A stretch of DNA of 34,250 bases from Alphaproteobacteria bacterium (lineage in GTDB: Bacteria > Pseudomonadota > Alphaproteobacteria > Micavibrionales > Micavibrionaceae), in assembly GCA_002401695.1 (NCBI GenBank), contig NVTV01000010.1:1-34250 (forward strand). Reading direction: 5' to 3'. The position numbers and the translations under genes were made by a program. A model generated the notes under the pieces. The model searched no databases. It was not told the DNA's origin and saw only the letters and a program-made list of their open reading frames with translations. This document shows positions 718 through 33,997 of the stretch, piece after piece (the stretch's first letter is position 1; each line of letters begins with the position of its first letter).

Positions 718-1064
718 CCGAACTAAAACTAAGGCCAAGTGATGGCGACAAGTGGCGGCTATTGGATCATCTGGTGTATGAAACCAATGATGGTGATCTT
801 GTGGTTGTGCCTCCAAGTTTTCCAACTGACCTTGCTAGTATTCCTCGCCCTTTGCGTCTTCTTTATCCTGTGCATGGCGCACATACAAGAGCCGCTGTTA
901 TCCATGATTACCTCTACCACACCAAAGAAATTGACGACGACCCTATTACTCGTAAAGAAGCGGATCAAATCTTTTATGAGGCTATGAGATGGTTGGGCGT
1001 TAGGTGGAGCAAGGCAAAAACTATTTATTTCGCTGTCAGAATTGGCGGCTGGGCTTCCTGGTAA
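705..1064 (+). CDS. DUF1353 family phage protein
   Basis: This 119-residue protein matches the DUF1353 pattern. It has a VPPSFPTDLASIPR segment near the middle, an AAVIHDYLYH motif (around residues 63-72), a conserved R/D pair in RKEADQIF, and a C-terminal YFAVRIGGW. DUF1353 proteins are frequent next to phage lysis or tail genes. The His and Asp residues suggest a hydrolase-like site, but no activity is established. The start overlaps the M15 gene by 13 bp. Family assignment is confident; function is unknown. Confidence 0.8.
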   Translation: MPFLTELKLRPSDGDKWRLLDHLVYETNDGDLVVVPPSFPTDLASIPRPLRLLYPVHGAHTRAAVIHDYLYHTKEIDDDPITRKEADQIFYEAMRWLGVRWSKAKTIYFAVRIGGWASW

Positions 1065-1071
1065 AACAAAT

Positions 1072-3414
1072 ATGAGAAACACCATTATTTTATGTGTCGT
1101 TTTGGCCTTCTTTATGAATATGGCCAGAGGTGACGTTGAGCAAACATGGCCACAGTTGATTGTTGCTGATGAGAGCGGAGTGGCGATTGAAGGCGTATCT
1201 AAATCGGTCAGTCAGGTTAATGCGCTAGAGAAGGTATTAAATCTGCCATGTGGTACGCATAAGATTATTCGTCCTGACGCGACAATCATTACAAGTTGTG
1301 CTGTTGTTGATCCTGATCCTGATCCGACTCCCGACCCTATTCCCGATCCTATTCCCGACCCTGATCCTTGCAATCCTGATGGATCAGAGAACTGTGGTGA
1401 AAATCCAGTACCAGTGCCAGACCCTACCGAATCAGTAGCCTATACACAGAAGAACCTAGCGGGTTGTATAGATACTTTAGGGGCTGCTGGCGGTTGGTGT
1501 AAAATGGAGGTGTCTGTTGATGACCCTAGTATCTCCAGCGTATACCCAGCAAAGCTGGCACGGCATTATGGAAGGCAGGGCTCTACGCTGAATGCGTGGT
1601 GTGGCGCTGCCTTTGATGAAGCAGACAAGGTTCTGTACTTTACCTGTGGCGGTCATGCAGACTATCCAGGCAACGAGGTTTACTCATTTAATCTTATGGC
1701 GGGGAAGTGGGAACGACTAACAAACCCCTCCCCACTAGACTACGTTACCTACAATGGCCCTATTAAAACAAGGTATATCTGGACTCCTGACCTACGCAAA
1801 GTTCCCAGTGCATCCCATACTTACGATGGATTAGTATATCGTCCCGATACTGGCACAATCCTCTATACCATGCGTCGACCTTCAAACGGTGCAAGGGTTA
1901 CTACAGGGGAGGATGATACAAGTCCTCTATTTGTCCTGAGTGTTGCAGAGCCACAGGTGTATGAGTTCAACCCCTCAAAGGTAGATACTCGTAATGGCTT
2001 GGCTCCTCTGTCATGGCGGCTATTAGGAGGGGCTCCTTTCTCGTATCTTAAAGCTACGATGCTCCCTGACGCCTCAGTCCTTGTGGATTCTAAAACTAGG
2101 CTTTACAGGGTTACATTCCCTGATAATGTATTCAGTTATTCTGAACTTGCCCGTCATGCTGATTATGGCGATGGGAATATGATCTACGACCCTAGTCGTG
2201 ACCTGGCTTGGATTGTATCAAGACATGATGTGCGCAGTATCAACCCAGTAACAGGAGCTAAAGTTCACGGCTTCCTAATCGAACCCTCACTTTCTGGTAA
2301 ATCTTTAGCCCTCGATGCTGATAACAATATCGTTATGTGGGATGGCTGCACGAAGGTAAGCACGTATAACCCCGAAACAGATGAGCTTACAACGCAGGAT
2401 TGGGGACTGTCAGGCCCAGCCAAGTGCCTTTCTTCGGGCCGTATCTACAGTAAATGGGTTCATTTGGGAGATAACGTGTTCGCCGGGGTTCGTAACGAAG
2501 ATCAGCCTGTTTGGATTTATAAGCACGGCCAAGCCCCCGCCCTACCAGTTGGGCAGGTTGTCAACACTCCTAGCACAGAGCTTTTTCATGCTTCCTTCGA
2601 CACAGATGACTGGTTCTTGGACTTCCAAAAGAGTGGTAATGACGGGCCTCAAACGCGCCTAGATGGCAGTAGGTACCTTAATGATGCCTCTATAGTTTCT
2701 GAGGGTTGCGTGGCAGGCGGCTGCTTGAAGATCGACTTCCAGTCTCTTGAGTGTTGTGGCATCGCCATACACTATGACATCCCCGGAGAACAACAGAACG
2801 CAATTGTTGAATATTGGTTAAAACTAGCCCCTAACTTTAGATCGGAGATATACGACGACACAGGAATACGATCCGGTTCAGGGGGTAAGTTACCGGGGCT
2901 TGCTGACATATCACAATACCCGCTGGATCAGTGCGGAAACGGTGGAGCAAGTGCTGATGGCATAGAGTGTTGGTCAGCTAGGACTAAGTTTGGTAATTGC
3001 AATGGCGCCCCTTCCTGCACAGGGACAAATAAGACTCGCATTGGAGCCTATATTTACTCCGCTGAGAACCAAAATATCACGGGAGACGTTGGCTACTTTG
3101 ATGGGGATAGCACCTCAACTGGCTATTTAAACCGTGGTATAGGAACTCATGGACAGCTTGAGCCTGATCGCTGGTACAAGATCAAGATTCAAGTAGCGAT
3201 GAACACTCCTGACGTACACGATGGGGTGTATCGGGCGTGGATAGATGATGTTCTGGCCTATGATAAAACAGACATGCTGTGGCGCTATTCTGGGCATGAA
3301 AACCTGCATGTTAGTACCTTCTGGATGAACGCCATGTTTGGTGGGTCGGGAGTAGGCCCGCTAGAGGACACCTACATTATGATAGATGAACTGAGAATAT
3401 TTGGTGAAGATTAA
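1072..3414 (+). CDS. Secreted-type kelch/galactose-oxidase-like protein with lectin-like C-terminus
   Basis: I place the start at ATG 1072 rather than an in-frame TTG at 1042, because it gives a clean signal-peptide-like N-terminus: MRN, then a hydrophobic stretch to about residue 15, then an ARG-D cleavage-like site. The product is 780 residues. A Cys-containing N-domain is followed by a Pro-Asp linker (about residues 80-102), then a region with kelch/galactose-oxidase character (for example CGGHADYPGNEVYSFN, around residues 193-208). The C-terminal portion (about 500-780) looks like a jelly-roll/concanavalin or polysaccharide-lyase-type domain. Many Cys residues fit an oxidising compartment. 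It opens the fibre block and is probably a glycan-binding adhesin or depolymerase. An export signal on a phage fibre-cluster protein is odd. Confidence 0.65.
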   Translation: MRNTIILCVVLAFFMNMARGDVEQTWPQLIVADESGVAIEGVSKSVSQVNALEKVLNLPCGTHKIIRPDATIITSCAVVDPDPDPTPDPIPDPIPDPDPCNPDGSENCGENPVPVPDPTESVAYTQKNLAGCIDTLGAAGGWCKMEVSVDDPSISSVYPAKLARHYGRQGSTLNAWCGAAFDEADKVLYFTCGGHADYPGNEVYSFNLMAGKWERLTNPSPLDYVTYNGPIKTRYIWTPDLRKVPSASHTYDGLVYRPDTGTILYTMRRPSNGARVTTGEDDTSPLFVLSVAEPQVYEFNPSKVDTRNGLAPLSWRLLGGAPFSYLKATMLPDASVLVDSKTRLYRVTFPDNVFSYSELARHADYGDGNMIYDPSRDLAWIVSRHDVRSINPVTGAKVHGFLIEPSLSGKSLALDADNNIVMWDGCTKVSTYNPETDELTTQDWGLSGPAKCLSSGRIYSKWVHLGDNVFAGVRNEDQPVWIYKHGQAPALPVGQVVNTPSTELFHASFDTDDWFLDFQKSGNDGPQTRLDGSRYLNDASIVSEGCVAGGCLKIDFQSLECCGIAIHYDIPGEQQNAIVEYWLKLAPNFRSEIYDDTGIRSGSGGKLPGLADISQYPLDQCGNGGASADGIECWSARTKFGNCNGAPSCTGTNKTRIGAYIYSAENQNITGDVGYFDGDSTSTGYLNRGIGTHGQLEPDRWYKIKIQVAMNTPDVHDGVYRAWIDDVLAYDKTDMLWRYSGHENLHVSTFWMNAMFGGSGVGPLEDTYIMIDELRIFGED
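1309..1368 (+). repeat. Hexamer-type repeat encoding a Pro-Asp linker
   Basis: Repeated variants of GATCCT/GACCCT/ATTCCC encode alternating Asp-Pro (plus Ile-Pro and Thr-Pro) residues between the N-domain and the kelch-like region of the 1072-3414 gene. Because units are multiples of three, copy-number change would alter linker length without shifting the frame. Confidence 0.7.
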
Positions 3415-13458: not shown

Positions 13459-14876
13459 CAAATACTGTCCGTACTCCAGATGAGCGCCATAACAGGATGC
13501 TTCCCGATATTGAGCTGGCGAACGCCTTGCTTGGTGGTAGTGTTTCTATGCGAAAGGCGCAGGAAGACTATCTGCCCAAGAACGAGGCAGAGACTGACGA
13601 AAAATACAGCAGTCGTTTAAAGCGGTCATTCCTATATAACGTGTTTGAGAACACTACAGACACGATGGCTGGGAAGCCCTTCTCTAAAGACGTTACCGTT
13701 CAGAATGTCCCAGATTCAATGATGGCCAATTTAGAGAACATAGACCGCCAAGGTCGAGATTTAACTTCGTTTGCTTGTGATTTACTACATCAAGCGTTAT
13801 CCAAGGGATTGACGTTTATCCTTGTCGAGTTTCCCCAGGCTCCAGCAGAGGGCGAAAGGTCGCGCCAGCAAGAAATCGATATGGGGTTAAGCCCTTATTG
13901 GGTTCACATCAAACCAGAAAGTATGCTTGGTATTGATTACGATTATTACAACGGGGCGCTGGTTGTTCACAGCCTAAGAATACTTGAAACCTATGAATCT
14001 CGTGGAGCCTCATTTGACCGCAAAACCGAGGAGCAAGTCAGGGTTATTTATCCCGACAGATTCGAGGTGTGGCGCAAGGCTGAAGCCGAATGGGTTATGT
14101 TTGAAGAGGGTCTTCGAAGCGTAAATAAGATAACGCTTGTTCCTGTGTATGCCAAACAGGTTGGGCCGTTTGCTGCTAAGAACCTGTTAAAGCCTCTAAT
14201 GGAGAAGAACTTAGAGCACTGGCAGTCATCTAGTGAGCAGAGAAACATCCTTCACGTGGCTAGAGTGCCGCTGTTATTTGGTCGAGGATTAAGAACTATA
14301 GACGACGAAGGCAACCCCATTAAGCTGACCTCAGATTCTATTATCACCTCCGATTCTTCTGACGGCGATCTCAAATATGTAGAGCATTCTGGCAGGGCTA
14401 TATCTTCAGGTGAAAAAGACTTAGAGACGCTAGAAAACCAAATGGAAGCGCTGGGGGCCATTCTTCTCCAGGCTGACGAAACAAGAACAGCCACGGCACA
14501 AAGATCAACCGACTTTAAAGGTAATTCCAAGCTTCACACAGTAGTTGGAAACCTTAAATCAGCATTAGAACAAGCGCTGGCATTTAGCGGTGATTGGATA
14601 AATGTAAAGATTGACGCTGAAGTAACAATCTTTACTGAGTTCTCATTAATCAACCCTGACTTTATGACTGCTGATGATCTGCTTAAGGCCAAAATGGCTG
14701 GGCTAATTTCTCACAAGTTGTACATCGAGATCATGCAGCGTCGCGGGGTGTTTTCCTCGGATATTCCCTCCGAAGATATTGTTGAAGAAGCGCTAGAGGA
14801 CATCCCCAGCATCGAAGGGATAGATGACAGCATAGATGACGATGAAACTGACGGCGAAACCGATGGCTCTGAATGA
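13455..14876 (+). CDS. Portal protein (DUF4055 family)
   Basis: I place the start at ATG 13455, overlapping the terL stop, rather than at an in-frame TTG 69 bp upstream. The 473-residue product has the DUF4055-type N-terminus ALLGGSVSMRKAQEDYLP and YNVFENTTDTMAGKPF, a central LLHQALSKGLTFILVEFP, and a long helical C-terminal part. The last ~25 residues are very acidic (EGIDDSIDDDETDGETDG). It forms the dodecameric DNA gate at one capsid vertex. Placement directly after terL and before the MuF-like gene is canonical. Confidence 0.88.
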   Translation: MTNTVRTPDERHNRMLPDIELANALLGGSVSMRKAQEDYLPKNEAETDEKYSSRLKRSFLYNVFENTTDTMAGKPFSKDVTVQNVPDSMMANLENIDRQGRDLTSFACDLLHQALSKGLTFILVEFPQAPAEGERSRQQEIDMGLSPYWVHIKPESMLGIDYDYYNGALVVHSLRILETYESRGASFDRKTEEQVRVIYPDRFEVWRKAEAEWVMFEEGLRSVNKITLVPVYAKQVGPFAAKNLLKPLMEKNLEHWQSSSEQRNILHVARVPLLFGRGLRTIDDEGNPIKLTSDSIITSDSSDGDLKYVEHSGRAISSGEKDLETLENQMEALGAILLQADETRTATAQRSTDFKGNSKLHTVVGNLKSALEQALAFSGDWINVKIDAEVTIFTEFSLINPDFMTADDLLKAKMAGLISHKLYIEIMQRRGVFSSDIPSEDIVEEALEDIPSIEGIDDSIDDDETDGETDGSE

Positions 14877-15921
14877 TGACATTCTTGATGCAGAGGTTCG
14901 CCACGCTATTTACCTCCAGCGATACGGCGGCGGTGTTAGCAATCGCATTCTAGCCCTGTTAAACCGTACAGAAGCTGACGTTATACAAAAGATGGCGCGG
15001 CTTGAAGGTATCACTGACTTTAAATCTAAGCGCTTTAACACGCTGCTAGACAGCATTAGAGCCACTCGAAAAAAAGCCTATACCGAGGCAGGAGAATCGC
15101 TCAAAGATGAAGCGGTAGACCTTGCTCAATATGAGGCCGGTTTCCAGGTGGCTTTACTGAATAAAACTATTCCTATCCAGTGGAACGTTGTGCTTCCCTC
15201 TAAAGAATTATTGAGGGCAGCGGTAACATCAAGACCGTTCCAGGGGCGCCTGCTGAAAGAGTGGGTAAAGGGCATGGAGGCCAGAGAGTTTGTTCTACTA
15301 AAAGACCAGCTCAGAATAGGCATGGTTGAGGGTGAAACATTACCTCAGATAATTCGCAGAGTTAGGGGCACGAAAGCCTTGAATTATGTTGATGGATTGT
15401 TTGGAAAGTCTCGCCGTGAAGTTGATGCGCTGGTAAGAACTGCTGTTAATCATGTCCACAATGCAGCTAGAAATGAAGTGGGGATAGCCAACAGAGACCT
15501 TATAAAAGGTGTTGAATGGGTCTCCACTCTAGATGGCCGGACAACGGCAATTTGCAGGGCCAGGGATAACAATGTTTACCCTGTTGACTCAGGCCCGAGA
15601 CCTCCAGCTCATATTCGATGCCGCTCCACAGTGACGTTTGTTACAAAGTCGTGGAAAGAGCTAGGCATAAATTTACAGGAAGCCCCAGCAGGCACCAGAG
15701 CCAGCATGAATGGCCAGGTGCCTGATAATTTGTCTTATGGCGGCTGGTTGAGAAAGCAGCCTCGGAGCTTCGTCACAGAAACTCTAGGCAGCAGGAAGGC
15801 CAAGCTGTTCCTTGATGGCAATCTAAAGATAGATAAGTTCGTGGATCGACGTGGCAATACGTTGAACCTGGATCAACTGAAAATTAAAGAATCAGCGGCA
15901 TGGGATAAGGCAGGGCTTTAA
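14863..15921 (+). CDS. MuF/SPP1-gp7-like head morphogenesis protein
   Basis: I prefer ATG 14863 (14 bp overlap with portal), though ATG 14836 is possible; neither has a strong RBS. The ~352-residue product is mostly helical at first. It then carries the MuF-domain signature: TAVNHVHNAARNE, VEWVSTLDGRTTAICRARD, and GPRPPAHIRCRSTVTF around residues 247-262, with paired Cys and His. Such minor head proteins bind the portal and often accompany DNA or aid head assembly. There is no C-terminal toxin or protease domain beyond about 80 extra residues. Confidence 0.85.
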   Translation: MALNDDILDAEVRHAIYLQRYGGGVSNRILALLNRTEADVIQKMARLEGITDFKSKRFNTLLDSIRATRKKAYTEAGESLKDEAVDLAQYEAGFQVALLNKTIPIQWNVVLPSKELLRAAVTSRPFQGRLLKEWVKGMEAREFVLLKDQLRIGMVEGETLPQIIRRVRGTKALNYVDGLFGKSRREVDALVRTAVNHVHNAARNEVGIANRDLIKGVEWVSTLDGRTTAICRARDNNVYPVDSGPRPPAHIRCRSTVTFVTKSWKELGINLQEAPAGTRASMNGQVPDNLSYGGWLRKQPRSFVTETLGSRKAKLFLDGNLKIDKFVDRRGNTLNLDQLKIKESAAWDKAGL

Positions 15922-15936
15922 GTCTATAATGGCCGG

Positions 15937-16155
15937 ATGGATCGGCTGAAACTTATTCAAGGCGGCGGGCAGAAGAAAGCCCACCACAAACAACATAAAA
16001 ATGATGTTGAGCTATGGGTGTGCCGGTTAGATAAGACCAGTGAATCTATAGAGGTGTGCCTACCTTACTTCAAAGGAAACCGTACCAACAAGGGTGATAA
16101 GCGCCTGATCTGTTTACGGTGCTTTGTTGATGGGAGAATTACCGAGGTTCAATAG
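15937..16155 (+). CDS. Small Cys-containing hypothetical protein
   Basis: This 72-residue basic protein has a Gly/Lys/His-rich N-terminus (GGGQKKAHHKQHK) and Cys residues in WVC, VCLPY and ICLRC, which might make a small metal site though spacing is irregular. It starts 15 bp after the MuF stop and is followed by an intrinsic terminator at 16180. The context suggests an accessory (moron-like) gene closing the terminase-portal-MuF block. No function is recognised. Confidence 0.6.
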   Translation: MDRLKLIQGGGQKKAHHKQHKNDVELWVCRLDKTSESIEVCLPYFKGNRTNKGDKRLICLRCFVDGRITEVQ

Positions 16156-16179: not shown

Positions 16180-16202
16180 AGCCCGCTCAGTGCGGGTTTT
16201 TT
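16180..16202 (+). terminator. Intrinsic terminator-like hairpin
   Basis: Stem CCCGC (16182-16186) / GCGGG (16192-16196), 5-nt loop, then TTTTTT (16197-16202). It lies between two same-strand genes and forms the left boundary of the Maf-like/methyltransferase/ParB-like cassette. Confidence 0.85.
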
Positions 16203-16216
16203 AATGCGCGGAGTTT

Positions 16217-16819
16217 ATGTCTACAACCTGGATATGTATAGCTTCCGGGCCGTCGCTAACGAGGGCCGATGTTGATTTGGTTCGTGGCTATAACACGATT
16301 GTTATCAATGACAGCTATCGCTTAGCCCCGTGGGCCAAAGTCCTCTACGCCTGTGACCTGAAGTGGTGGGATCAACATCACGACGACGTAAAGCGTAAAG
16401 GCTTTGCTGGTGACAAGTGGGCGTGGGAGAGTAACCGCGACAATGTAGAAAAGGTTAAAGCTCACGGACTAAAGACAGTCTCTATTGCGGGTGAAGCGGG
16501 CCTATCTAGAGAGCCTTACAAAGTATATTCAGGTGGTAACTCGGGGTATCAGGCAATCAATCTAGCCTATCACTTTGGGGCTAAGAGAATCCTCCTCCTT
16601 GGCTACGATATGCAGGCCATTGATGGCAAGAAACACTGGTTTGGTGATCATCCTAAAGAGTTAGTTAACACTGACGAGAAGACTTATATCACCTGGCGAA
16701 ACAACTACAAGATATTGGCCAAAGAGTTGGAAATTGAAGGAGTTGAGGTCATCAACTGTTCCCGACAAACCGCTTTAACCTGTTTTACACGGACAAGTAT
16801 TGAGGCCGCTTTATGTTAG
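16217..16819 (+). CDS. Maf/DUF115-like Rossmann protein (putative glycosyltransferase-type)
   Basis: This 200-residue protein has IASGPSL at residues 9-14, ACDLKWWDQHH at 45-55, SGGNSGYQAINLAYHFGA at 105-122, and ILLLGYDMQ at 125-133. This series matches the core of DUF115/MAF_flag10 proteins, which include Campylobacter Maf flagellin glycosyltransferases and MptE-like pyrophosphokinases. It is much shorter than a full Maf, being a single core domain. The gene follows a terminator and overlaps the methyltransferase gene by 7 bp, so the two are probably made together. Possible roles are glycan modification of virion or host surface, or nucleotide/pterin chemistry. Which one cannot be told. Confidence 0.7.
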   Translation: MSTTWICIASGPSLTRADVDLVRGYNTIVINDSYRLAPWAKVLYACDLKWWDQHHDDVKRKGFAGDKWAWESNRDNVEKVKAHGLKTVSIAGEAGLSREPYKVYSGGNSGYQAINLAYHFGAKRILLLGYDMQAIDGKKHWFGDHPKELVNTDEKTYITWRNNYKILAKELEIEGVEVINCSRQTALTCFTRTSIEAALC

Positions 16820-17385
16820 ACCAGGATAGGGGGGCTGAAGTTGAGAAATACGAAGCCGCTTACCTAGAAGATTATTACCGTATGGGTGATGCCCGTAAGG
16901 CTTATGCAGAAGAAAATATAGCCTCTGCCAAAGATTGTAAAACCCATCTTGATGTGGGCTGCGGTCGTGGTGAAATGGTGGACTTTGCCGAATCTATTGG
17001 GCTGAAGTCTCAAGGAGTTGAAGCCGTAGATTATCTGGCTGATAGAGCCAACATTATTCACGGTTTCGCTTGGGATTTACGCTTTGATAACAACAGTGTC
17101 GATCTGGTAACAATGTTCGATGTGATTGAGCATGTATTACCAGAAGATACTGAGCGCACCTTGAATGAATTGAAAAGGGTGGCCAAGAAACAGTTGTTCA
17201 TTACAGCAGCCAACTACTCCAGTTTTCACGATGGACAAGAGTTGCATATCAACAAACGACCCTACGAAGAATGGGACGCTCTGTTCAGGCAGATATTCCA
17301 TGATGCGACGGTGACATGGTTGCCTCTTAAGTACGGAATAGGGTCAGAGACCTGGAGAATTAAAGTATGTCCTTGCCAAAAGTGA
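16813..17385 (+). CDS. Class I SAM-dependent methyltransferase
   Basis: This 190-residue protein has a classic motif I, LDVGCGRGE (46-54), an acidic end of beta-2 in GVEAVD, and the motif VDLVTMFDVIEHV (about 96-108) typical of Methyltransf_11/23-type small-molecule, lipid or sugar methyltransferases. No DNA-methyltransferase motif (NPPY/DPPY or PC) is visible, so a small-molecule or glycan substrate is more likely than DNA. It overlaps the upstream gene by 7 bp and the ParB-like gene by 19 bp. The substrate is unknown. Confidence 0.85.
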   Translation: MLDQDRGAEVEKYEAAYLEDYYRMGDARKAYAEENIASAKDCKTHLDVGCGRGEMVDFAESIGLKSQGVEAVDYLADRANIIHGFAWDLRFDNNSVDLVTMFDVIEHVLPEDTERTLNELKRVAKKQLFITAANYSSFHDGQELHINKRPYEEWDALFRQIFHDATVTWLPLKYGIGSETWRIKVCPCQK

Positions 17386-17720
17386 GGTTGAGCGAATTTA
17401 CCATAAATGGCCACTCGTATACTTACGAAGACAAGCAGTACCCTGTTGTGGACATAATCAAACTGGCAAAGGAGATTGAGTCGTTTGATCTTCCTCTTGC
17501 AGGAATCAATCTATCCTGTGCCCCTTGGGGCGAACAGAACATTATGTCAATTTGTGGTCATATGAAACGAGTGAATGAGGCTGATATGTCTCACCCCATT
17601 ATCTTGGATGACGAGGGGTATATTTGTGATGGGTGGCATCGTGTCTGCAAAGCCATTTTAGAAGGACGGGAAATAATTAAGGCCGTTCGTCTGGAAGTAA
17701 TGCCCGACCGAGTAGGATAA
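17367..17720 (+). CDS. ParB/sulfiredoxin-like domain protein
   Basis: This 117-residue protein has a C-terminal HPIILDDEGYICDGWHRVCKA (76-96) that matches the ParB/Srx fold motif: a strand, an acidic turn, Gly-(Y/x)-x-x-DG-x-HR, then a helix. The motif binds nucleotides (CTP or ATP) in known families. The N-terminal ~60 residues are less conserved and hold two Cys. There is no partition HTH domain, so plasmid-type segregation is unlikely. It overlaps the methyltransferase gene by 19 bp and may serve the same modification pathway. Fold assignment is reasonable; function is unknown. Confidence 0.65.
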   Translation: MSLPKVRLSEFTINGHSYTYEDKQYPVVDIIKLAKEIESFDLPLAGINLSCAPWGEQNIMSICGHMKRVNEADMSHPIILDDEGYICDGWHRVCKAILEGREIIKAVRLEVMPDRVG

Positions 17721-17731
17721 GGATTTATGCA

Positions 17732-17917
17732 ATGAAAACAGATGAGCTAAAGACCCTTATAAATGCGGCTGAAAGTTTGGGCCATAAAAACATAGAACTG
17801 GTCATTAATCATTCTCGTGACGGGGTTTCATCTATGCCGCTTGCTCGAGCAGAGTTAATACAGACCGGCTCGCAGATGGACCCATGCGTGACGCTGGTTT
17901 TCTCACTAGAACCTTAA
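17732..17917 (+). CDS. Small hypothetical protein ending the cassette
   Basis: This 61-residue protein begins MKTDELKTLINAAESLGHKN and continues with ELVINHSRDGV and a C-terminal strand VTLVFSLEP, a short helix followed by a beta-hairpin pattern. It begins 11 bp after the ParB-like stop with AAGGA upstream and is followed by an intrinsic terminator at 17939. No family is recognised. Confidence 0.55.
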   Translation: MKTDELKTLINAAESLGHKNIELVINHSRDGVSSMPLARAELIQTGSQMDPCVTLVFSLEP

Positions 17918-17938
17918 GACAAACAATTTAACCAACAG

Positions 17939-17960
17939 CCTCGCTAATGCGGGGTTTTTT
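17939..17960 (+). terminator. Intrinsic terminator-like hairpin
   Basis: Stem CCTCGC (17939-17944) / GCGGGG (17949-17954), TAAT loop, then TTTTTT (17955-17960). It closes the cassette before the scaffold gene. The 3' arm and tail (GCGGGGTTTTTTATTGCC) are nearly identical to the hairpin at 27208. Confidence 0.85.
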
Positions 17961-17961
17961 A

Positions 17962-17976
17962 TTGCCCGGTGGGCAA
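17962..17976 (+). promoter_or_regulatory. Second hairpin in scaffold leader
   Basis: TTGCCC (17962-17967) and GGGCAA (17971-17976) form a perfect 6-bp inverted repeat with a 3-nt loop, just 3' of the terminator and 23 bp before the scaffold start. It may protect the 5' end of the capsid mRNA or block an upstream in-frame GTG at 17969. Confidence 0.5.
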
Positions 17977-17998
17977 CAACGTGATCGGAGATCATTCC

Positions 17999-18739
17999 AT
18001 GAACCTAGAAGAACTTTACGAGCAAAACCCTGAAGTCAAAGACCTGGTTAACCAACAGATTCAAGATCAGGCAACCACATTAGCCGAGAAAACTTCACAA
18101 GGCTTAATGAACAAAAACAACGAACTGATGGATGAGCTTAAGCCGCTTAAACAAAAAATGAAGTTGCTTGATGGCATTGACCCCGAGAAATACCGGGAGA
18201 TGCAGCAATCCATTAAAGATAAAGAAACACAGGGCTTTGTAGATAAGGGTCAGATTGACAAAATCATTGAGGCTCACAACACCGAGAAACTATCTTGGGG
18301 TCAGCAATACGAGCAAACAACAACTGAGCTTAACGGCACCATTAGCACGCTAAAGAGCAGTCTAGAAAAAGAGGTAATTGACAATCAATTGCTTGCTGCT
18401 CTATCGCCCATCGCGGTGGATGAGCCAAGCCTTGAATACCTAATGATGAAAACACGCGGCCAGGTAGAAATGGTTGATATAGAAGGCCGAATGGTGGCTC
18501 GTGTTAAGAACGGAATAAACGGGGATGGTAGTTACAAGATGATTCCCGACCTAGTACAAGAAATAGCCGGTAATGAGCTGTATGCACGGTTCGTTAAAGG
18601 CACCCAAGGAACTGGAAGCGGCGCTAATGGTTCCGATGTACCCGCTGGTGGCAATGGTGCAGCACCCAAGACGTGGGCTGAATGTAAAACAGTCCAAGAA
18701 AAACAAGCCTTTCTCAAGGCACAAAAGAAAACCCAGTGA
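17999..18739 (+). CDS. Capsid scaffold protein
   Basis: I place the start at ATG 17999, with GGAGAT at 17986-17991, over an upstream in-frame GTG that lies in the hairpin. The 246-residue product is acidic, Gln/Lys-rich and largely coiled coil (about residues 10-140). A Gly/Asn-rich linker around 200-222 is followed by a basic C-terminal helix (VQEKQAFLKAQKKTQ) of the kind that binds the capsid shell. It lies directly before the major capsid gene, with 8 bp between them. These features are standard for a tailed-phage scaffold. No protease domain is seen. Confidence 0.85.
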   Translation: MNLEELYEQNPEVKDLVNQQIQDQATTLAEKTSQGLMNKNNELMDELKPLKQKMKLLDGIDPEKYREMQQSIKDKETQGFVDKGQIDKIIEAHNTEKLSWGQQYEQTTTELNGTISTLKSSLEKEVIDNQLLAALSPIAVDEPSLEYLMMKTRGQVEMVDIEGRMVARVKNGINGDGSYKMIPDLVQEIAGNELYARFVKGTQGTGSGANGSDVPAGGNGAAPKTWAECKTVQEKQAFLKAQKKTQ

Positions 18740-18747
18740 GGTAAATT

Positions 18748-19707
18748 ATGTCTTTATCACAAATGCAGGTCTTCAATGACTTTGCGTATTTAACGTATAC
18801 AGAAACCCTTCGTCAGCAAATTGAATTATTCAATGCTGCATCTGGCGGGTCTCTGGTTCTTTCATCTGTTGCCAATACTGGCGACTTCTCTGAAGAGGCT
18901 TTCTATAAAAAGCTCTCTACGGTAACCCGTCGGCGCGATCCTTATGCTACCGGTGTAGTGGCTCCGGTTAGTTTGACTCAAGACAACCATGTAGCCGTCA
19001 AGGTTGCTGGTGGTACGCCGCCTATCGCCTTTGATCCAGCGCAGTTTGCGTGGATTCAAAAGTCACCTGAAGAGGCTGGCATTGTTATTGGTGAACAGCT
19101 ATCGAAAGGTATTCTGGCTGACCAAGTGAACAGCTCTGTAGCGGCGCTACAAGCAGCACTAGCAAACACGGCTGCGGTTAACTATGACGCAACAGCCGGA
19201 ACACTGACCTTGAACGCGCTTAACCGTGGTGCGGCAATGTTTGGTGATCGAGCAATGGACATTAAAACGTGGGTAATTCACTCCACGCCTATGCACGATC
19301 TGTTTGATACGGCGCTGACTAATGGCAATGATCTCTTTAAGTTTGGTGATGTCGCCATTATTCAAGATGGCTTTGGTCGCCGGTTTGTAATGACCGATTC
19401 CCCATCGCTGTTTAATGCTACTGCGTCTCCCGATCAATACAGCACACTCGGTTTATCCGAAGGCGCTGCGATTGTTGAAGACAATGGCGATCTCTACACC
19501 AATATCGAGGAATCGAACGGTGACGAGAATATCAACCGCACCTTCCAGGCTGAATACTCCTTCAACCTGAAGTTGAAAGGGTTTGCGTGGGATAAAGCTA
19601 GTGGTGGTAAGGCGCCAAATGATGCAGAAATTGCAACAGGTTCCAACTGGGATCAAGTAGCAACGGACGCGAAAGATTTGGCTGGTGTTGTGGTTACTTC
19701 TCAGTAA
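18748..19707 (+). CDS. Major capsid protein
   Basis: This 319-residue protein begins MSLSQMQVFNDFAYLTYTE and ends with a GVVVTSQ strand. It has the size, composition and place (after scaffold, before neck genes) of an HK97-fold shell protein. Central segments such as RGAAMFGDRAMDIKTWVIHSTPMHDLF and RRFVMTDSPSLF resemble conserved parts of phage capsid proteins that lack a cleaved delta domain. GAGG lies just upstream of the start. A stable UUCG hairpin follows the gene. Assignment rests on pattern and synteny. Confidence 0.85.
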   Translation: MSLSQMQVFNDFAYLTYTETLRQQIELFNAASGGSLVLSSVANTGDFSEEAFYKKLSTVTRRRDPYATGVVAPVSLTQDNHVAVKVAGGTPPIAFDPAQFAWIQKSPEEAGIVIGEQLSKGILADQVNSSVAALQAALANTAAVNYDATAGTLTLNALNRGAAMFGDRAMDIKTWVIHSTPMHDLFDTALTNGNDLFKFGDVAIIQDGFGRRFVMTDSPSLFNATASPDQYSTLGLSEGAAIVEDNGDLYTNIEESNGDENINRTFQAEYSFNLKLKGFAWDKASGGKAPNDAEIATGSNWDQVATDAKDLAGVVVTSQ

Positions 19708-33448: not shown

Positions 33449-33997
33449 TTAGGGCTGGGTTAATGCTGCCAATGACTTTGGAATTTCGTCTTTGTGGATT
33501 GTCTTCTTAAACCCAATGTTTGCTGCGGTATGAAAGACAATTACACCCTCTGGGTTCATAAAGCCTGGGCTGGCGAGGCTCCCCAATTGTTTTAGTCCGT
33601 CAAGGCACAGCTCAATATTTGATTGTGAAAAATCTCCTCGATACAGTATTGGCACAACGTCACAACATTCCGGTCTTTCCGCTGCCCATCTTGATACGTT
33701 AAACAATGAGAAAGCCTTTCTATCCATATCATATCTACGCTGGATTCCTTGCCCCCACCATTCGCCAAAATGTCTACCGTGGCCAAGAGTCATAAGATCA
33801 TCTTTGTTCTCATGCGCCCACCGAGCAAAACCATAATTATCGTCTTCTGGTGTTATCCATCGCTTTCGACTACCGACCAAAAACTCACCATTTTCGCCAA
33901 TGCAAATCTGTGCATTAGTGCCATCTATTTTTTCTGTGATAATAATTTCCCTAGACAGTCTTGCCATTTTTGGGAAGGCTTCAAAATCAAGGCTCAT
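33449..33997 (-). CDS. Compact RNA ligase-family protein
   Basis: This 182-residue protein shows the covalent nucleotidyltransferase motifs in order: motif I EKIDGTN (22-28, nucleophile K23), VGSRKRW (41-47), HFGEWWGQG (76-84), KAFSLFNV (94-101), motif IV PEGVIVF (149-155) and motif V GFKKTI (162-167). It matches the RNA_ligase family. It has the adenylation core only, without a C-terminal domain. TTGGAG precedes the start. Such phage ligases can reseal tRNA cut by host anticodon nucleases. No polynucleotide kinase is present in the window. Confidence 0.88.
   Translation of the reverse strand: MSLDFEAFPKMARLSREIIITEKIDGTNAQICIGENGEFLVGSRKRWITPEDDNYGFARWAHENKDDLMTLGHGRHFGEWWGQGIQRRYDMDRKAFSLFNVSRWAAERPECCDVVPILYRGDFSQSNIELCLDGLKQLGSLASPGFMNPEGVIVFHTAANIGFKKTIHKDEIPKSLAALTQP

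Follow-up and report, generated by a model that had tools for sequence, protein, structure and literature searches.

What are two predicted enzyme genes doing among the head genes of a phage-like element? The question is raised by a 34,250-base stretch (the window: bases 1-34250 of the 51,088-base contig NVTV01000010.1, assigned to an alphaproteobacterium), which holds phage head and tail genes. Between its genes for a MuF-like head morphogenesis protein and a head scaffolding protein lie four genes with intrinsic-terminator-like sites on both sides, the first three of them overlapping, as an earlier note made from the letters of the DNA had described and as our coordinates and scans confirm. 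That note took the first three for a modification unit carried together. We find that the conserved unit is the pair formed by the first two, which encode a predicted Maf/CstII-fold glycosyltransferase (GT, 200 amino acids, 16217..16819, + strand) and a predicted class I S-adenosylmethionine (SAM)-dependent methyltransferase (MT, 190 amino acids, 16813..17385, + strand). We give an even chance to the reading that the overlapping GT and MT act in turn and so place an O-methylated sugar on a phage head protein.

Linkage was counted from the side of MT. Loci with an MT match above 100 bits came from two viral-contig scans and one bacterial-genome scan; the resulting 107 loci (the window included, its copies L001 and L133 left out, some contigs taken twice) fell into 65 clusters at 90%. 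GT, or a divergent MptE-like family that we call GTb, lies at most 150 bases upstream of MT in 43 clusters, is fused with MT in one open reading frame (ORF) in four and is found within 2 kb in a further 12; it is absent from five, and a contig edge cuts one. MT is linked to GT or GTb in 59 of the 64 evaluable clusters, eight of the 59 resting on matches below 100 bits (the weakest, at L251, 29.7 bits). Two of the five unlinked clusters have a weak MptE-like stretch after MT, fused C-terminally at L278 (10.2 bits) and in the next gene at L287 (14.6 bits), and were left out of the linked count. Of the fused ORFs, those of L097 and L109 run off the end of their contigs and that of L110, a member of the L109 cluster, is complete; on the MT tree the fused label requires at least two changes. 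The same tree, from a run that had not settled, places the window in a group with L234, L232 and L025 (bootstrap 99-100). As a control, 74 bacterial loci carrying generic methyltransferases gave no GT or GTb; the control is imperfect, being drawn from bacterial genomes, not phages.

GTb precedes MT in L083, L085, L100, L103 and their kin; the L085 member has no Pfam or PHROG match, and by eye the head-tail modules around these genes resemble those of short-tailed phages.

The third gene stands outside this unit. Its 117-residue product (17367..17720, + strand) does have the ParB/Srx fold that the earlier note assigned to it. Among 293 sources (292 loci and the window, four isolate loci having been chosen for this very gene), its model matched only in the window, the two copies of the window and those four loci, where neither GT nor MT matches. 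The closest relative, L234, has the pair and lacks both the ParB-like gene and the 61-residue ORF that follows it (17732..17917, + strand; no significant family match in Pfam and PHROG scans). The viral-contig scan found no relative of the ParB-like protein, and a PDB sequence search with its profile gave nothing informative. Both genes are probably later passengers of the cassette. We rejected the trio as a unit, the ParB-like gene being absent from pair-bearing relatives and GT and MT from the isolates that carry it. Failure of the three genes to co-occur elsewhere had been named beforehand as what would refute the proposed unit: the trio was not found elsewhere among the 293 sources, and the pair co-occurs widely, so the proposal survives for GT and MT and falls for the ParB-like gene.

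What kind of enzyme is GT? It carries the motifs GPSL, GGNSG and LLLGYDMQ, on which its Maf-like assignment had been based, and matches phrog_4603, annotated as alpha-2;3-sialyltransferase, over the full length (E 4e-55, profile positions 1-173 of 178). Among the leading structural matches listed, the best is the Maf structure 5mu5, in good agreement with the fold expected for 16217-16819; GT has the fold of solved Maf enzymes and also that of CstII, at 14-18% identity to Cst-I/CstII. We found 4,365 homologues at E<=1e-3, and many close ones carry an MptE-like domain in precomputed annotation. GT might accordingly be thought an MptE-like pterin or thiamine-type diphosphokinase, the pair making a small molecule; with a Maf flagellin glycosyltransferase as the best structural match, we hold this to be very improbable, and predict from family and fold that GT is a glycosyltransferase of Maf/CstII type. 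Compared with the Maf flagellin glycosyltransferases (MAF_flag10, PF01973, 5mu5), the phage protein is a GT42-like core alone, lacking the N- and C-terminal Maf domains; it is encoded among head and not flagellar genes, and its methyltransferase is separate or fused. The Maf N-terminal domain itself weakly resembles methyltransferases, according to part of PMC11339370.

MT matches Pfam Methyltransf_11 at 45.3 bits (cut-off 21.2), as expected of the SAM methyltransferase first proposed, and keeps motif I, E70 and D103 across 39 MT rows. Its weak NCBIfam matches leave the likely substrate unsettled: the best, far below cut-off, is mycofactocin oligosaccharide methyltransferase (E 3.8e-6), a pseudaminic-acid-associated methylase is likewise far below cut-off (E 9e-5), and quinone and other methyltransferases match almost equally. 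A tblastn search of phage records with MT gave no match at E<=1e-5. The MT model matched in 25 of 58 genomes (its own and 57 relatives), and all matches other than the MT of its own genome were generic-looking, at 40 bits or less. A defence system was considered and rejected: no PADLOC model matched genes 1, 3 or 4, and mad2 gave MT a weak match (25.9 bits) to a stretch of its profile only.

On what would such a pair act? Four sister loci (L233-L236; L233 to L237 form one MT cluster) have portal, MuF, 72-residue ORF, GT, MT and scaffold in the same order as the window, with MuF matching at E 6.6e-169, GT 63% identical in L234 and L236, and no match to the ParB-like or 61-residue proteins. In the window the corresponding neighbours, all on the + strand, are MuF (14836..15921; phrog_241, E 7e-140), the 72-residue ORF (15937..16155), which lies beside the pair in L233-L236 too, and the scaffold (17969..18739; phrog_206, E 2e-24). 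The annotated isolates with a related MuF (PS-1, DMCA, phiES15, Sonora, YuA and CN2) lack these genes at this position, and none of the six stretches was matched by the models of GT, GTb, MT or the ParB-like protein; the pair thus occupies an accessory slot in the head gene cluster. A viral-contig scan with MuF returned seven loci, and neither GT nor MT matched in any of them. In a survey of flanking genes, 108 of 223 were hand-picked, short, antisense and some other ORFs being left out; among them were 21 Phage_capsid genes, nine for head completion, eight gp6-like connectors and three portals, and PHROGs agree with Pfam on these head-gene flanks. At some sister loci a connector-like gene splits GT from MT, and both still lie among head genes.

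This setting bears on the suggestion, made in the earlier note, of superinfection exclusion or a changed host surface, whereby the pair would alter the lipopolysaccharide core, its 3-deoxy-D-manno-oct-2-ulosonic acid (Kdo) region or the capsule and block superinfecting phages. Glycosyltransferases and methyltransferases both occur in surface-glycan synthesis, the terminators could insulate the cassette, and the contig looks temperate, since its remainder has a repressor-like gene (Peptidase_S24), along with SSB and NinB genes, and an integrase-like ORF, recognised by eye, beside tRNA-Ala. Direct repeats, sought inside each of the two contig end regions separately (with no cross-region comparison and no test of termini), yielded nothing useful. 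However, both in the window and in the sister loci the pair keeps to the head genes, even where it is split, and no sigma-70-like promoter was found on the + strand inside the cassette. We found no direct support for a host-surface role and consider it unlikely; the head-gene position points rather to the virion.

Homologues of GT found by tblastn in known phages (D3 orf7, P1 pmgO, and in Psp6, Eowyn, S20 and CcrSC) belong to the same family by model, at 136-180 bits. The gene lies between major capsid and connector genes in D3 and Psp6; in S20 it directly follows the genes for portal and protease, in CcrSC it comes after tail genes, and in P1 it is part of the pmg region, next to genes for tail and baseplate. 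Its neighbours in Eowyn are mostly hypothetical. A head position is therefore usual, not universal, across the wider family. All six loci except that of P1 have an annotated methyltransferase at most ~2.5 kb away. In its place the P1 locus carries pmgP, a second MptE-like gene that scores below cut-off (20.9 bits), together with genes for a phosphatase and a glycosyltransferase. Unlike the window MT, the methyltransferases of these loci fall, where tested, into PHROGs 6564 and 24759, and that of S20 matches the MT model at 23 bits only. In S20 (Tetraselmis viridis virus, L127), several glycosyltransferase-like genes, two MptE-like genes and one methyltransferase gene lie past the portal and protease genes, perhaps forming a larger glycan cluster.

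In P1 the pmg genes bear the annotation 'putative morphogenetic', which, along with the head-module position, would fit GT and MT being assembly factors, catalytically dead enzyme folds that aid head morphogenesis. We doubt this strongly: the SAM motif is kept across the MT rows, GPSL, N31 and NSG are kept or nearly kept across 58 GT rows, and the six isolates with related MuF have neither gene there. In addition, pmgO and pmgP, like ppp and pmgQ, are non-essential by CRISPR interference and in an earlier deletion survey, as stated in part of PMC10695390. The main text of a second P1 paper has no mention of pmgO, pmgP, pmgQ, ppp or 'glycos' (PMC9024508).

Which sugar might GT transfer? A third partner of ~270 residues lies within ~1.4 kb after MT in 36 of the 65 clusters; it is present at 12 of 80 GT-anchored loci and shares a single ORF with GT at L075. 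The best PDB matches of its profile are KpsC (E 0.0029) and 5fa0 (E 0.0081), which we take to be beta-Kdo transferases using cytidine monophosphate (CMP)-Kdo. The fold family of GT and this partner both suggest acid sugars activated by CMP. The assigned host genome (completeness 93.8%) has KdsA (427.9 bits, above cut-off) and a KdsB-like gene that matches CTP_transf_3 (146.9 bits, above cut-off), and has no match to NeuB, the sialic-acid-type synthase family, in which respect the setting differs from that of the GT42 enzymes Cst-I/CstII; CMP-Kdo would thus be the available donor. Maf enzymes use CMP-activated acids as donors and protein Ser/Thr as acceptors, and in E. coli can attach Kdo to flagellin, a shift of +220 Da, according to sections of PMC11339370. 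Because of this precedent and the available donor, we propose that GT would act first, transferring a Kdo-type acid, possibly from host CMP-Kdo, onto a head protein, for which the Gp13-like major capsid protein (18748..19707, + strand; Pfam and PHROG scans) is a candidate, and that MT would then methylate the transferred sugar. Families and folds, linkage and the place among head genes are observed; enzymatic activity of the pair, a head protein as acceptor, CMP-Kdo as donor and the sugar as the target of the methyl group are inferred. A bolder version, in which a stripped-down Maf-type enzyme puts host Kdo on phage capsids and a dedicated, sometimes fused MT caps it to give a methyl-Kdo coat, is tentative and on balance rather unlikely.

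Third-partner proteins are also seen beside GT at loci lacking this MT (L128, which is CcrSC, L005 and L015, and in the fused form L075).

Besides the imperfect control, several points weigh against sequential glycosylation and methylation of a head protein. The enzyme activities and the virion glycan on which the reading depends are predicted ones. For GT, Pfam MptE-like (PF01973) reaches 26.6 bits against a cut-off of 34.6 and covers residues 99-133 only; a search by Foldseek alone had no match at E<=1e-3; the profile alignment to CstII is weak (E 0.4); the CstII catalytic residues could not be placed; and the conserved H145 is Tyr in both GTb rows aligned. GT mostly stands without MT, which goes with GT and not the converse: a strong MT neighbour occurs at one of the 80 GT-anchored loci (L025), and weak MT-model matches of 22-41 bits lie within 5 kb at five others. 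The window lacks the Kdo-transferase-like third gene, the KdsB-like gene scores 136.4 bits, under its 155.2 cut-off, and possible misbinning of the contig would, if real, undo the host donor argument. The dispensability of P1 pmgO and pmgP would fit decoration but also other roles. Finally, MT could methylate protein rather than sugar; virion proteins of Cellulophaga phages are reported to carry methylation (PMC13288928).

The pair could also be imagined to modify phage DNA or nucleotides, with a sugar or methyl on the base. DNA-acting phage glycosyltransferases are known (part of PMC12619734), and a dATP/dGTP diphosphohydrolase-like gene lies on the contig, where no search was aimed at purine-modification partners. 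We regard this as highly unlikely: the pair is in the head module, its best matches by structure are transferases that act on proteins or glycans, and no base-hypermodification enzyme was matched when 28 chosen proteins of the window and contig, many of which matched nothing, were scanned against Pfam.

Decoration of a head protein by GT and MT would have parallels. Chlorovirus capsid glycans bear methylated sugars, and a glycosyltransferase acts together with a methyltransferase on the same glycan, as we propose here; the differences are a eukaryotic virus, other enzyme families and a multi-step pathway of its own. Glycosylation of mycobacteriophage virions was reportedly shown by experiment by Freeman in 2023, whereas the GT-MT pair is known from sequence alone; relative to those glycans it would be new in its probably different enzyme type and its dedicated methyltransferase. 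The mycobacteriophage glycans are reported on capsid and tail tube proteins in part of PMC12619734. An enveloped phage with lipid-linked glycans, as described in part of PMC8402811, has no bearing on the pair. Open-access PubMed Central literature, a scope outside which fall preprints and most subscription papers, held no account of the pair that we could find. If the proposal is true, it supplies a function for a large family of phage proteins, the homologues of GT, for which the records viewed name no role, and shows direct protein glycosylation of the Maf type to reach beyond flagella to virus particles, where a glycan coat could affect adsorption, stability and antibody recognition.

Do the terminators make the cassette a mobile unit? 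GT and MT overlap by 7 bases and MT and the ParB-like gene by 19, and the 61-residue ORF starts 12 bases past the end of the latter. The upstream site (16180..16204, + strand) has a 7-pair stem at 16180-16198 followed by TTTTAA, and the downstream one (17937..17962, + strand) an 8-pair stem at 17937-17956 followed by TTTTATT. The two look similar, are the top two + strand sites of a regional scan, with one - strand site (19962) scoring between them, and each rank first in the scan of their half-window. The regional scan gave 12 sites, compared with 6.3 +- 2.7 in shuffled sequence. The bracket is not conserved: L234 has no + strand terminator-like site at either edge, has a - strand one between MT and scaffold, and its upstream 72-residue ORF overlaps the GT gene. 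We rejected the terminators as marks of a mobile cassette on this ground and because terminators are also annotated around the scaffold and capsid genes of YuA and Sonora. A nucleotide search of phage records with the cassette gave no match, and its GC content (0.457), near that of the flanks (0.467-0.480), gives no sign of recent foreign origin.

Three other genes deserve a record. The diphosphohydrolase-like gene mentioned above (L311:15379-15744, + strand, same contig) carries a dATP/dGTP diphosphohydrolase N-terminal domain at 60.2 bits. A 182-residue ORF at 33449-33997 of the window (- strand), beside tRNA-Ala, matches the RNA ligase phrog_548 (E 6.4e-31). A 790-residue protein at 1042-3414 (+ strand), with a C-terminal Polysacc_lyase_14 match (40.7 bits, cut-off 27), is likely a tail-spike depolymerase.
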